Positions 12,582-21,783 of a DNA stretch of 64,000 nt are shown here, one piece after another. This stretch comes from Oligoflexia bacterium (GTDB taxonomy: Bacteria > Bdellovibrionota > Bacteriovoracia > Bacteriovoracales > Bacteriovoracaceae). A program made the position numbers and the translations under genes. Location of the stretch: the NCBI GenBank assembly GCA_015231955.1, contig JADGAN010000001.1, positions 62,001 to 126,000 of the forward strand, given 5' to 3'. A model generated the notes under the pieces. The model searched no databases, had not been told where the DNA came from, and saw only the letters and a list, made by a program, of their open reading frames with translations. Each line of letters starts with the position of its first letter. Position 1 is the stretch's first letter.

Positions 12582-12593
12582 TTACCCACGAAA

Positions 12594-12622
12594 CTTGCCT
12601 CGAATGAGGCAAGTTTTTTTCT
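12594..12622 (+). terminator. Rho-independent terminator after the flagellin pair
   Basis: Perfect 9-base stem ACTTGCCTC (12594-12602) / GAGGCAAGT (12607-12615) with loop GAAT, followed by a T-run to 12621. It begins 13 bases after the second flagellin stop. Confidence 0.93.
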
Positions 12623-12657
12623 TTATTTTCTTTTCAGCAACAAAGTATCATAGATCT

Positions 12658-13668
12658 ATGGAACAACTAAAAAACTCTTCTTTACAAATCAAGAATAAAC
12701 GCAAAACCATCCTTATTTTTGGCATCTCCTCGATGGTAGGATCCAATCTCGCCGATTACTTAAAAAAATTTTATCGAATCATTGGAACCTACAACAACTG
12801 TCCTGTGCGCATCCCTGGGGTGCTCACCATTAATTGTGATGTTTTAAATCGCAATGCCGTACAAACCGCCATCTATACTTTTAGACCTGAAATCACCATC
12901 TATTGCATTGGCCTTAACTCTCTTCTTGATTGTGATCGCCAAGAGAAAATTGCCAATGCTCTTAATACTGTGGGTGTTTTTAATGTGGCCTCTTACAGTG
13001 AGCGGTACGAATCAAAACTTTGCTACATCTCCTCGGCCTATGTGTTTGCAGGTGCTCACCAAATTTACAGTGAAAATGATGGTCCTGAGCCACTTACCAA
13101 CTTTGGAAAAACTAAGGCCTCCGCAGAGTTTTTTATCCAGAAAACTTGCTTAAACTATCTTATCTTACGCAGTTCTACTCTTTATGGAAGAAGCGTGAAT
13201 CCTAGGCAGTTTACCAACTTTGAGATGATTCAAAAGAAGATGGAGAAAGAAGAGTCGTTTTCTTGCGATAGTAATATCTATGGCGGTTTTTTAGATGTTT
13301 TGTATTTGGCGCAAATTATTAAACTGGCAATTGATGGTGATGTCACGAACCGACTCTTCCAAATCTCCTCTGCCGATGTAGGAACCTATTTTGACTATGC
13401 CACTTACTATGCCAAAATTTTTAGAACCAATGCTTCGCTAGCGATGAAGGGGCGTTGGCACTATCGAGAAATTCGCTCTGAATTCAATGATGAAATTACT
13501 GGTGGAAAACGCTACTTCCAATTAAGTAACGATAATGTGGAAAATTTTTTTGGAATAAGCATGCCTACCATTGAGGAGTCAATGTACTTTACCTATTCGC
13601 GCCTGGGTGGCTCCTATCTCGAAGAAAAAAACAATAGTGGGAAAAAGGCCGCGATCAAGTTCATCTAG
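12658..13668 (+). CDS. RmlD-like NAD(P)-binding sugar reductase homologue with altered catalytic Tyr
   Basis: A 336-residue extended short-chain dehydrogenase of the dTDP-4-dehydrorhamnose reductase type. The N-terminal nucleotide-binding loop is LIFGISSMVGSNLADYL, and CYISSAYVFAG is the Ser/Thr-containing strand. The active-site box is PLTNFGKTKASAE where the family has YGxTK, so the catalytic Tyr is replaced by Phe while the Lys is kept. LRSSTLYG follows. The frame is open to 12574, but that part overlaps the flagellin terminator, so the ATG at 12658 is preferred. The role is unknown; sitting next to flagellins it could act in surface glycan or flagellin modification, but the Tyr change argues for altered or lost reductase activity. 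Confidence 0.78.
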   Translation: MEQLKNSSLQIKNKRKTILIFGISSMVGSNLADYLKKFYRIIGTYNNCPVRIPGVLTINCDVLNRNAVQTAIYTFRPEITIYCIGLNSLLDCDRQEKIANALNTVGVFNVASYSERYESKLCYISSAYVFAGAHQIYSENDGPEPLTNFGKTKASAEFFIQKTCLNYLILRSSTLYGRSVNPRQFTNFEMIQKKMEKEESFSCDSNIYGGFLDVLYLAQIIKLAIDGDVTNRLFQISSADVGTYFDYATYYAKIFRTNASLAMKGRWHYREIRSEFNDEITGGKRYFQLSNDNVENFFGISMPTIEESMYFTYSRLGGSYLEEKNNSGKKAAIKFI

Positions 13669-14212: not shown

Positions 14213-14596
14213 ACGCCATCTCCTTCCTATGAGAGGTCTATTAAACATAAAACAGGGGAAGAGGCCAAGGCATCAAATGGAATCTATTCGCTCCCAAATG
14301 GTAAACGTGGGCGCGATAATTAATCAATTTAGGCCTCCCACAATCTGAAGCATCTCAAAAAAACGCATCAGGCAGGCCCGCACACCTTGATCAGGGATCA
14401 CTCCCGAATGTGTTAATTGTAGGGCGAAAGTCATGTATGCCCTAGCACTCTTCCTTAATGGTAATTATACACAAAAATTCCAGATAGTGCCCACTCTTGG
14501 AGGAATATTTTTCCTCCAAATAAATTTTATTGATCACTCCTACTTTCACTATCCCTTTGAAATCACTTTCTTGGCACGACAAATAAAAAAGTAGTC
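14213..14596. other. Gene-free stretch with several inverted repeats
   Basis: No convincing coding frame is present between the 180-residue hypothetical and the Tad promoter. Visible structure: TTGGAGGAA (14497-14505) / TTCCTCCAA (14511-14519), a perfect 9-base stem that contains ribosome-binding-site-like and anti-SD-like sequence; ACAC..GTGT enclosing GGGA..TCCC at about 14379-14411; and AGGGC..GCCCT at about 14421-14443. None is followed by a long T-run. A small RNA could be encoded, but no known family was recognised. Confidence 0.4.
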
Positions 14597-14625
14597 TTGC
14601 GTCAGATTCCCGATCAAGTTACAAT
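14597..14625 (+). promoter_or_regulatory. Sigma-70 promoter of the Tad pilus operon
   Basis: TTGCGT (14597-14602), a 17-base spacer, then TACAAT (14620-14625). It lies about 135 bases upstream of the Flp pilin ATG, and no other gene intervenes. The -10 region is part of an 18-base element repeated further downstream at 15003-15020. Confidence 0.7.
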
Positions 14626-14630
14626 AGTAT
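14613..14630 (+). repeat. 18-base element, copy 1
   Basis: ATCAAGTTACAATAGTAT overlaps the -10 box of the Tad promoter. It matches the copy at 15003-15020 at 17 of 18 positions. Confidence 0.7.
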
Positions 14631-14758
14631 TATCCCTCTTATCCTCTGGAGGGGGGAAGAATAGGAGTTCTCTGATAAATAACTTTAGTTAATTTAAATA
14701 ACGCCGAAGAGGCCATAGATCTTCAGAGAAGAATAACAAGGAGACAAGGAGCAACTTT

Positions 14759-14953
14759 ATGATAAAAACGCTAAAACTCTTCTTGAGTAGTGAGGACGGG
14801 CAGACCTCCACAGAGTATATCCTTCTGGTTGCAGTTGCGGCCTTGCTGGTCTTCCGCTTTAAAGATATTGCAGCAGACCGCTTACAAAAGATTACCAATA
14901 AGGTCTTCGAGAACGCTGATCGTATGGCAACCGATATGGGTAGTGGTTCTTAA
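14759..14953 (+). CDS. flp: Flp-type pilin
   Basis: A 64-residue Flp/Fap prepilin, the major subunit candidate of the Tad pilus. A short charged leader (SSEDG) is followed by the class signature QTSTEYILLVAVAALLVF: cleavage after Gly, then a Glu at +5 and Tyr, leading into the hydrophobic assembly helix. The rest is a short amphipathic tail. AAGGAG lies upstream. The leader would be cut by the TadV peptidase encoded two genes on. Confidence 0.92.
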   Translation: MIKTLKLFLSSEDGQTSTEYILLVAVAALLVFRFKDIAADRLQKITNKVFENADRMATDMGSGS

Positions 14954-15002
14954 AAAATTTCTACTCTGCCAGCAAATTTTTCCAACACCACTTCTTGATG
15001 TA

Positions 15003-15020
15003 ATCAAGTTACAATCGTAT
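15003..15020 (+). repeat. 18-base element, copy 2
   Basis: ATCAAGTTACAATCGTAT, differing from copy 1 (14613-14630) at one base. It also forms the right half of a palindrome, CTTGAT-GTA-ATCAAG (14994-15008). It ends 2 bases before the start of the second pilin-like gene. A -10-like TACAAT is present, but no matching -35 at 17 bases. Confidence 0.7.
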
Positions 15021-15022
15021 CT

Positions 15023-15256
15023 ATGATTACGATAACCATGACAAAGAAAGGACAGGCCCTGATTGAATATATACTCATCTTGGCCATGATGTCTTTAGTT
15101 GCAGTCAAAGCAACCTCCAATATTAGAAATTCACTCAACAAGGCATTGGGTAATTTAGCAGGAACACTCTCCATCCACTTGACAGTGGGTGTATGTGGGG
15201 CAACTGGCGAAGATCGCTGCTTTTTTAAAGGCTATGCCAACGGTAAAGAAACTTGA
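15023..15256 (+). CDS. Second Flp/TadE-like pilin
   Basis: A 77-residue prepilin-like protein. KKGQALIEYILILAMMSLVAVKA gives a Gly cleavage site, +1 Gln, a Glu-Tyr pair and a hydrophobic helix as in Flp pilins. The C-terminal part has two Cys (VCGATGEDRCFF) that could form a disulfide, unlike the first pilin. No ribosome-binding site is clear; MTKKG at 15038 is an alternative start. The stop overlaps the next start (TGATG), so it is coupled to tadV. Confidence 0.8.
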   Translation: MITITMTKKGQALIEYILILAMMSLVAVKATSNIRNSLNKALGNLAGTLSIHLTVGVCGATGEDRCFFKGYANGKET

Positions 15257-15753
15257 TGTTAACATCAATCTACCTCTTTGCACTACTTGAACTCTTGGTG
15301 GTCTCTTATCTCGATTATAAGACCAAAAAGATTGCCAACTGGTGGTCGATCATCAATGTGCTACTCTTTATTGTAACCATCATTCTCTTTCCCCAAAACT
15401 ATAAATTTAGTATGAACTTACTAACAATGCCTGCGCTATTTTTAGGACTGGGATTTATTCTCTTTTACATACGCATAGCAGGGGCCGGCGATGTAAAATT
15501 TCTATCCACCTTCTTTCTTTTAATACCACTGCATTTGCATCTAGAAATGACTGAACTGATTTTAATCTCCACCATTGTGGTGGCTTTGCTCTTAATCTTA
15601 AAAAACACTATTAAAAATAGCACTTTAATCGTTACAATAATAAAAGAGAGGCAATGGTTGCTGTTGCAAGGAATTTATGGAACTAAATTTTCCTACTCTC
15701 CTGTAATCTTACTGGCGTGGGTATGGCTATGGATAAAAACACAGCTCCTCTAA
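15256..15753 (+). CDS. Prepilin peptidase TadV/CpaA (A24 family)
   Basis: A small, all-membrane aspartyl protease of about 165 residues. The two catalytic Asp are in YLDYKTKKIAN (about residue 20) and GAGDVKFLS (about residue 75; the family motif is GxGD). Such short forms lack the methyltransferase domain of PilD and process Flp and TadE leaders. The ATG at 15256 overlaps the upstream stop by one base; a TTG at 15253 is also possible. Confidence 0.9.
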   Translation: MLTSIYLFALLELLVVSYLDYKTKKIANWWSIINVLLFIVTIILFPQNYKFSMNLLTMPALFLGLGFILFYIRIAGAGDVKFLSTFFLLIPLHLHLEMTELILISTIVVALLLILKNTIKNSTLIVTIIKERQWLLLQGIYGTKFSYSPVILLAWVWLWIKTQLL

Positions 15754-16049
15754 GAAAAATAAAAAACAGTGGTCAAAGTTTAGTAGAGTATATCTTTCTC
15801 TTGGCCGCAATTATTTTTTTAATTGGACTAACCTTTCGCAATCCCTACTTGCTATCCTTTTTTGGCCCTGACAGCAGCTATTTTAATAAAGTGAAAAAAT
15901 CGTTAGAGCACTCTTATCGTCACGCTTTTGAATACTCTGTTGCCACGGTTATTAATCAGACAGATGATCAGAGGAGAAATGGAACGCATGAATCGTTTGT
16001 AGTTAGTGGCCAAACCCATTTTTTCTATGTCCCACTTTACCCACAATAA
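15729..16049 (+). CDS. Pilin-like/pseudopilin protein of the Tad operon
   Basis: A protein of about 106 residues with the prepilin-type segment KNSGQSLVEYIFLLAAIIFLIG: Gly cleavage site, then QSLVEY and a hydrophobic helix. The soluble part is basic and aromatic and matches nothing I know. The gene overlaps the end of tadV; ATGs at 15723 and 15729 are both possible, with a weak GTGGG before the second. Probably a minor pilin. Confidence 0.75.
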   Translation: MDKNTAPLRKIKNSGQSLVEYIFLLAAIIFLIGLTFRNPYLLSFFGPDSSYFNKVKKSLEHSYRHAFEYSVATVINQTDDQRRNGTHESFVVSGQTHFFYVPLYPQ

Positions 16050-19671: not shown

Positions 19672-21783
19672 TTGGCCGGGCATATAATTAGCGTGATTGG
19701 AGGCAAAGGCGGGGTTGGCAAATCTCTTTTTGCTGCAAACTTAGCATTTGCTTACGCACAAGAAATTCGTAATAGCGTTCTACTTCTTGATTTTGATCAA
19801 AAGGCCTGTGGTGATCAAAGCATCATCACCGGTTTAAAACCGAAAAAAAATCTCAAAGATCTCGCCGATTTTACAGGAGCTATCGATCCTAGAAGTATTG
19901 CGCCCTTTATCGCCACTTCTCCGCAAAAAGTCTCCTTTATTAGCATGACCAATGATGCAAACGCGGCGGCGCAAATCAGTATTGATGGCCTGGGAAAAAG
20001 TTTAAAGGCCATTCCCAATATGTTTCCGATTACTATTATCGATATTGGCAGCGAACTTACTCCTCTAGCGCTCAAAGGGTTGGAGAATTCTGTTCTTATT
20101 TTTTTAGTCACCTCTCATGACGTTTTAGCAGTTAATCAAGCAAAAAGGATTTACTCCGATTTACTCACGCAACTTTTTCCGAAAGATGCCATTCAAGTCA
20201 TTGCCAATTTTTATCAAAAAGGGCTTCCCATTACTCCAGAACTTATCTCTGCACAAATTGGCAAGCCCGTGTTTGCAATCATTCCGCGTGACGATGCCAC
20301 CTGTACCGCATCTTTAAGCAAATCCCAAGCAGCAGTTGCAACTCAAAATACTACCGTCTATGCAAGATCGGTGGTTGATTGCGTTCGTAAACTTGTGCAA
20401 AAAAATGTGCTCAAGACATTGGAAAAGTTGTCTCGCCCTACTGAACAAAGGCCAAAGAGCGATACTCCTGAAACTGCCGAAGTCCTCGAAAAAAAGAAAA
20501 AGCTTGGCTGGCTTGACATGAAAGCACGAGTCTTAAAAGCTTTAGTCGAAGAGATGGACATCAAAAACACCAGTGACGATAAGGATGCCAAGGGAAGAAT
20601 TATTCTTCGAGAACAAACTAGAAAAAAGGTGGTGGAGATCTTAGATAAAGAGGACACCAAAGGTGTTGTCGACGGCCGCGAAGAGATGAATAAACTTGTA
20701 AAAGAGGTTCTCGATGAGGCATTAGGTCTTGGCCCACTGGAAGATCTTTTGGCAGATAAAGCGATTAGCGAAATTATGGTGAATGGCCCTCATCAAATCT
20801 ATTTTGAAAAGAGTGGAAAAATTCGTCTCTCCGAGGTGGTATTTACCAATGAACGCCAGGCCTTAAATGTTATCGAGAGAATCGTTGCTCCTATTGGAAG
20901 GCGTATCGATGAAAAAGTTCCCTATGTTGATGCCCGCCTTCGCGATGGTTCACGTGTTCATGCGATCATTCCACCCTGTGCTTTAAATGGTCCCACTATT
21001 ACCATTCGAAAGTTCCCAGAAAAAGTTTTAACCTATAAAGATTTAGTGGCCTTTGGATCAATGACCACTGAAATGGCCGATTTTCTACGAGTCTCGGTGG
21101 AAGCACATCGAAATATTGTGGTTAGTGGTGGTACCGGTTCTGGAAAAACCACTCTGATCAACTTACTGGGAGGATTTATTCCCGCTAACGAACGTATTAT
21201 TACTTGTGAAGACTCTGCCGAACTCCGGCTTCCTCAGGAACATGTCGTTCGCCTAGAAACCAAGCACCCCTCGCTAGAAGGGGAAGGTGGCGTCGACATT
21301 CGTTGCCTAGTTAAGCAGTGTTTGCGTATGCGTCCCGACCGTATTGTTGTTGGTGAGTGCCGAGGAGGAGAAACTCTAGACATGCTACAAGCAATGAACA
21401 CTGGGCATGATGGCTCACTGACCACTGTTCACTCTAACAATGCCCGTGATTGTATGGGCCGCTTGGAAACTCTAGTGCAATACTCGGGTGCTGGGCTCAC
21501 TCAGCGAGCGATTAGGGAGATGATCTCTTCGGCCGTACACATGGTGGTTCAACAATCACGCCTTGATGATGGCTCTAGAAAAGTCATACAGATCACCGAA
21601 CTCAGTGGCATTCAAGGTGAGATTATCACTCTTCAAGATATTTTCATCTTTAAACAAGAAGGCCTAAACAAACAAGGTAAAATAGTTGGTAAATTTCAGC
21701 CCACTGGATTTATTCCCAAATTTGTCGAAGTATTAGAGAGAAAGGGTTACAAAATCCCTAGAGGGATTTTTAATTCTGGATAA
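19672..21783 (+). CDS. Fused TadZ (ParA/MinD-like) and TadA (CpaF secretion ATPase)
   Basis: A single 703-residue frame. Residues 1-250 form a MinD/ParA-type localisation ATPase with deviant Walker A GKGGVGKS (11-18), VLLLDFDQ and ITIIDIGSEL. After a charged linker (about 255-300), the rest is a CpaF/TadA type II/IV secretion ATPase with Walker A GGTGSGKTTL (about 486), the Asp box ITCEDSAEL, Walker B RPDRIVVGECRGGE and the His box HDGSLTTVHSN. In most Tad loci these are two genes, cpaE and cpaF. The start is TTG with GGAGG at 19661-19665; the ribosome-binding site abuts the cpaC stop, so expression is coupled. Fusion would tie pole or site selection to the motor. Confidence 0.92.
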   Translation: MAGHIISVIGGKGGVGKSLFAANLAFAYAQEIRNSVLLLDFDQKACGDQSIITGLKPKKNLKDLADFTGAIDPRSIAPFIATSPQKVSFISMTNDANAAAQISIDGLGKSLKAIPNMFPITIIDIGSELTPLALKGLENSVLIFLVTSHDVLAVNQAKRIYSDLLTQLFPKDAIQVIANFYQKGLPITPELISAQIGKPVFAIIPRDDATCTASLSKSQAAVATQNTTVYARSVVDCVRKLVQKNVLKTLEKLSRPTEQRPKSDTPETAEVLEKKKKLGWLDMKARVLKALVEEMDIKNTSDDKDAKGRIILREQTRKKVVEILDKEDTKGVVDGREEMNKLVKEVLDEALGLGPLEDLLADKAISEIMVNGPHQIYFEKSGKIRLSEVVFTNERQALNVIERIVAPIGRRIDEKVPYVDARLRDGSRVHAIIPPCALNGPTITIRKFPEKVLTYKDLVAFGSMTTEMADFLRVSVEAHRNIVVSGGTGSGKTTLINLLGGFIPANERIITCEDSAELRLPQEHVVRLETKHPSLEGEGGVDIRCLVKQCLRMRPDRIVVGECRGGETLDMLQAMNTGHDGSLTTVHSNNARDCMGRLETLVQYSGAGLTQRAIREMISSAVHMVVQQSRLDDGSRKVIQITELSGIQGEIITLQDIFIFKQEGLNKQGKIVGKFQPTGFIPKFVEVLERKGYKIPRGIFNSG

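Follow-up and report, generated by a model that had tools for sequence, protein, structure and literature searches.

In Caulobacter, with pilA and the cpa operon, the major pilin is transcribed apart from the assembly genes, as is proposed here for another Tad locus, the regulators being different; no leaderless second pilin is known in Caulobacter.

The TAD locus of Bdellovibrio has been described as one operon, and in an E. coli test FliA drove the flp1/TAD promoters of B. bacteriovorus and B. exovorus (PMC5430801). According to the available part of that paper, this locus, like the one studied here, begins with two pilin genes and has a FliA-like promoter ahead of flp1, but its flp2 encodes a trimmed pilin and it lacks TadV. 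The same source gives three TAD pilin genes for Halobacteriovorax and Bacteriovorax, as in the present locus, and the word "leaderless" is absent from its available part. The consensus of Bdellovibrio attack-phase promoters was given as TTAAG-N16-CCGATA in the accessible text of PMC3627812.

Leaderless genes as such are already a known kind, their published mark being a TANNNT about 12 nt upstream of the start (PMC3160421, available part). Bdellovibrio is not mentioned in that part of the text. The second pilin gene of the present locus, flp2, has the same TANNNT at about -12 from the start and likewise no Shine-Dalgarno sequence. It differs from the TA-led genes of that paper as a single named gene whose predicted leaderless state is conserved throughout a family, although few genes there start in this way. 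By titles and abstract openings, no description of a leaderless second pilin was found in the open-licence literature searched, nor did a paper on transcription starts in Bacteriovorax turn up there.

The DNA analysed here, referred to as the window, is a stretch of 64,000 nt from an Oligoflexia bacterium of the Bacteriovoracaceae with a genome of 5.6 Mb (G000). A preliminary description had reported an 18-base element repeated before two pilin genes and had offered two explanations: one regulator binding both copies and tuning the ratio of the pilins, or an internal start site at the second copy.

Loci compared

The relatives compared were Bacteriovoracaceae, including Bacteriovorax and Halobacteriovorax. 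Altogether 118 loci were read. The gene flp1 was assigned in 109 of these (all except L036, L043, L068, L088, L089, L109, L111, L114 and L127) and flp2 in 112 (all except L036, L109, L111, L114, L123 and L127), the window being counted in both groups. The flp2 start codons were chosen by rule. The box before flp2 was first noticed in the upstream sequences of relatives; the discovery set consisted of 28 relatives with flp2, one per genus, and was followed by 83 further loci of the family. The named loci largely represent genomes already covered by the unnamed ones and were left out as independent support for P2, the candidate promoter of flp2. From other families 20 loci were scanned by pilin pattern, and five were read past flp1 by eye.

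The repeated 18-mer and its surroundings

The repeat was confirmed by a check of the sequence: copy 1, ATCAAGTTACAATAGTAT (14613-14630), and copy 2, ATCAAGTTACAATCGTAT (15003-15020), differ at one base, and TACAAT is central in both. The promoter-like arrangement TTGCGT (14597-14602), N17, TACAAT (14620-14625) and the palindrome reported at the second copy were also present as described. The features of the locus are the following.

14597-14625, + strand: P1, predicted sigma70-type promoter of flp1, TTGCGT-N17-TACAAT, assigned from the sequence and relatives; copy 1 covers the -10 box
14684-14710, + strand: FliA (sigma28)-like promoter of flp1, TTTAGTTA-N11-GCCGAAGA, degenerate, 5 mismatches
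14746-14751, + strand: Shine-Dalgarno sequence AAGGAG of flp1, assigned from the sequence
14759-14953, + strand: flp1, first Tad pilin (DGQTSTEYILL), assigned by Pfam Flp1_like (E 0.00076, under the curated cut-off) and alignment with 12 relatives
14994-15008, + strand: palindrome CTTGAT-GTA-ATCAAG, unconserved, at chance level
15003-15020, + strand: copy 2 with the predicted P2 -10 box TACAAT (15010-15015), which is separated from the flp2 ATG by 7 nt and has no recognisable -35
15023-15256, + strand: flp2, second Tad pilin, Pfam Flp_Fap (E 0.002, under the curated cut-off); ATG 15023, alternative ATG 15041
15253-15753, + strand: prepilin peptidase, its start overlapping the flp2 stop; Pfam Peptidase_A24 (E 1.1e-5, just under the curated cut-off)
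15717-16049, + strand: third pilin-like ORF

The order on the + strand is thus flp1, flp2, prepilin peptidase, third pilin-like ORF and further pilus genes. The ORF at 19672 is, as read from its sequence, presumably a CpaE-TadA fusion. The prepilin peptidase was found in 118 of the 129 family genomes searched.

Allowing up to 3 mismatches, the 18-mer pattern had 2 matches in the window, compared with 0.27 expected. In the whole genome it was not enriched at the same threshold, with 19 matches versus 18 for the reversed control, and the exact 13-mer ATCAAGTTACAAT occurred twice in the 5.6 Mb, both times at this locus. A genome-wide regulon of the motif was rejected on these counts. The sole site with 2 mismatches, in L003, was close to where unrelated ORFs of the minus strand have their 5' ends. 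Pairs of 18-mers alike in at least 17 of 18 positions within 600 nt were found once in the window (the present pair), in 1 of 15 Markov simulations and 54 times in 400 kb of the same genome. A local near-repeat is accordingly not rare in itself, and chance as the source of this one cannot be called negligible.

The palindrome was rejected as a significant element, as its count was at chance level and it was not kept in the family. Perfect 6-3-6 inverted repeats numbered 30 in the window and 11-32 in 10 simulations; any such repeat was present at this position in 5 of 112 loci, and copy 1 had no matching partner arm.

Predicted promoters and translation signal of flp1

In the window, P1 is located 133 nt from the flp1 ATG, and its TTGCGT agrees with TTGACA in the TTG alone (3 of 6 positions). 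The relatives have a TATAAT at the place of P1, followed by a FliA (sigma28)-like box. The density of exact TATAAT was 6.5 per kb at -170 to -50 of flp1 and 0.32 per kb farther upstream, an approximately 20-fold difference. A TTG at exactly 17 nt from the TATAAT was detected in 34 of the 75 loci having a single TATAAT. The conserved -35 and -10 elements at a 17-nt spacing back the earlier claim that the first copy overlaps the -10 box of a promoter.

The FliA-like box was scored against TAAAGTTT-N11/12-GCCGATAA. With up to 4 mismatches it was found before flp1 in 93 of 109 loci, compared with 10 of 109 reversed controls. The box of the window has 5 mismatches, as did 20 of the 109 reversed controls, so it is unremarkable when taken alone. 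A Shine-Dalgarno match of at least 4 nt preceded flp1 in 103 of 109 loci. The possibility of a SAM-II riboswitch upstream of this gene was rejected (20.4 bits, E 0.8).

On the minus strand at 14259-14451, a match to 6S RNA (Rfam RF00013) was observed, the only one in the genome, with 36.9 bits against a gathering score of 46.4. In 9 of 10 family loci tested the corresponding position, divergent from flp1, carries a 6S RNA that exceeds the gathering score, so the match in the window very likely represents the genome's own 6S RNA. TGGGCA-N18-TATAAT on the minus strand (14493-14464) could be its promoter.

The predicted -10 box before flp2

A TANNNT at 5-8 nt before the start was present at flp2 in 94 of 112 loci (18 had none there) and at flp1 in 0 of 109. 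With one genome per genus the flp2 value was 24 of 28, which is the safer figure because the fresh loci hold many species of the same genera. A -10-like hexamer at the same distance from flp2 was present in 22 of the 28 loci of the discovery set and in 59 of the 83 fresh ones; for flp1 the count was 1 of 109. Ten control windows of the same width gave 0-6 and 4-19 in the discovery and fresh loci, respectively. The distance between the hexamer and flp2 peaked at 6 nt, with 14 discovery and 44 fresh loci. A Shine-Dalgarno match of at least 4 nt before flp2 was detected in 1 of 112 loci. A TTG 16-18 nt upstream of the predicted P2 -10 box was found in 45 of 94 loci, and the control spacers gave 4 and 2. 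Sigma28 boxes with up to 4 mismatches were seen in just 4 of 108 gaps, and a box of this kind at flp2 was rejected.

The window itself has no such TTG: the best -35 at spacers of 15-19 matches in 2 of 6 positions, no TG precedes the -10 box, and the gap to the ATG is 7 nt, not the modal 6. In the Bdellovibrionaceae-like L263, the pilin gene after flp1 differs from the Bacteriovoracaceae flp2 by having a Shine-Dalgarno sequence, and its product is without a leader peptide, in agreement with the trimmed flp2 of the available part of PMC5430801.

Comparison of the loci shows the position and spacing of the predicted box to be conserved and a Shine-Dalgarno sequence to be lacking before flp2. The suggestion of an internal start site at the second copy is thereby well supported, with a -10 box at leaderless spacing kept across the family. 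As judged from the sequences, flp2, which heads the Tad machinery cluster, is most likely expressed from a leaderless mRNA and transcribed apart from flp1, and its start codon in the window appears to be 15023 rather than 15041.

The C-terminal region of flp2 has two invariant cysteines in 13 of 13 aligned sequences, which are absent from flp1. This hints at a special role of flp2, e.g. as a minor or tip pilin.

Leaderless starts elsewhere were counted by taking the first ATG in ORFs with a length of 120 aa or more. No peak was seen in the genome of the window, with 20 TANNNT counts at 5-8 nt for 330 ORFs. Small peaks were obtained in G002 (12 at 6 nt versus a mean of 5.9 per position, 166 ORFs) and G136 (10 versus a mean of 3.6 per position, 149 ORFs). 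In the 80 named loci the peak consisted of 40 of 520 ORFs with TANNNT at 6 nt, and about 30 of those 40 starts belonged to one other gene, NAD-epimerase-like and situated upstream. Leaderless starts being a minority in the genomes, the flp2 pattern is no background habit.

In the window, a NAD-epimerase-like gene follows the flagellin genes and has TATCAT-N6-ATG at 12646-12660. Its start is probably ATG 12658, which would give the window another leaderless gene besides flp2. Directly before this start and after the second flagellin gene, a hairpin with a T-run, AACTTGCCTC-GAAT-GAGGCAAGTT-TTTTTT (12589-12625), was observed, which looks like an intrinsic terminator with a promoter immediately after it.

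Likeness between the two sites

The 18-mer was absent from the family relatives tested, the best match among the first 29 relatives being 13 of 17 positions, and outside the -10 box the sequence was unconserved at either site in these 29. The conserved part at each place is the -10 box. When the regions upstream of flp1 and flp2 were compared in 105 loci, the best 18-mer match was 17 for the window and no more than 15 for the remaining 104; 150 sampled cross-genome pairs gave values of up to 16. Of the 12 bases flanking the -10 box, 11 agreed in the window. The mean values were 3.71 of 12 within genomes and 3.60 of 12 between genomes; as the likeness within genomes is no higher, a shared regulator is unsupported. 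Conservation beyond the -10 box, expected of a shared operator, was absent at both genes, and a family-wide regulator site was rejected on account of this and of the equal likeness within and between genomes. No second genome of the window's genus was found in the searches of relatives and the family.

A site confined to this lineage, through which one regulator would act on both promoters and set the pilin ratio, might account for the 11 of 12 agreeing bases, which exceed every cross-genome pair, and for the restriction of the 13-mer to this locus in 5.6 Mb; the closest relative, L043, also keeps part of the sequence at P2 (AGTTATCATTGTAT compared with AGTTACAATCGTAT). Such a regulator is nevertheless unlikely, given the missing conservation in the family, the P1 and P2 flanks equally alike within and between genomes, the lack of a regulon in the genome, and a palindrome at copy 2 alone and at chance level. 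The earlier proposal that a regulator binds both copies therefore found no support. Pure coincidence or a functionless local copying event is a probable source of the likeness beyond the -10 boxes: a comparable pair arose in one of the simulated windows and many were counted in the genome, and the remaining family manages without it. However, both copies lie exactly on two -10 boxes, which would be rare for a random pair. The 18-mer repeat as such is probably function-free, and the agreement among the 12 bases around both -10 boxes in this genome is taken as the result of chance or local copying.

One or two transcription units

The FliA promoter could drive flp1 and flp2 as one operon, as in Bdellovibrio, with copy 2 being a chance match in A+T-rich DNA. 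The control of the Bdellovibrio locus by FliA and its description as a single operon, in the available part of PMC5430801, are in line with this, as is the FliA-like box before flp1 in Bacteriovoracaceae. Further, the flp1-flp2 gap of the window yielded no terminator-like site; its hairpin is weak, and transcription may read through from flp1. In favour of separate units, 20 of the 74 gaps long enough had a hairpin between flp1 and P2 with z < -2. A single operon is nonetheless very improbable in view of the sharp 6-nt peak, a correctly spaced -35 and the lack of a Shine-Dalgarno sequence before flp2 in Bacteriovoracaceae. In addition, L043, whose peptidase is the most similar among the relatives, has flp2 with its -10 box behind an unrelated reading frame, with no flp1 in the preceding 700 nt.

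The two 18-mers would rather be the -10 regions of different promoters, one on each side of flp1. P1 would be a sigma70-type promoter upstream of flp1, with the FliA-like promoter nearer the gene, and the flp1 mRNA would carry a leader with a strong Shine-Dalgarno sequence. P2 would be an internal promoter with transcription starting on the flp2 start codon, so that flp2, followed by the prepilin peptidase and the Tad machinery, would be transcribed separately as a leaderless mRNA. This two-promoter explanation with a leaderless flp2 is considered highly probable as a whole. We infer from it the actual transcription starts, leaderless translation, a separate dosage of the pilins and P2 as the driver of the downstream genes. 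With two separate promoters, both pilins could still be set independently.

Discussion

As elements the two promoters are of an ordinary kind; it is their arrangement that is informative. The Tad locus of Bacteriovoracaceae, a family which includes bacterial predators, is probably organised as two units that differ in how translation starts, and not as one FliA operon, and flp2 would offer a simple, testable example of leaderless initiation conserved family-wide. More speculatively, and with only a slight chance of being correct, the separation of the Tad machinery, headed by a leaderless flp2, from the major pilin under FliA may serve a purpose in Bacteriovoracaceae. If true, leaderless translation would allow the cysteine-bearing second pilin and the assembly machine to be made when leadered mRNAs are handled differently, e.g. 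in the non-replicating attack phase.
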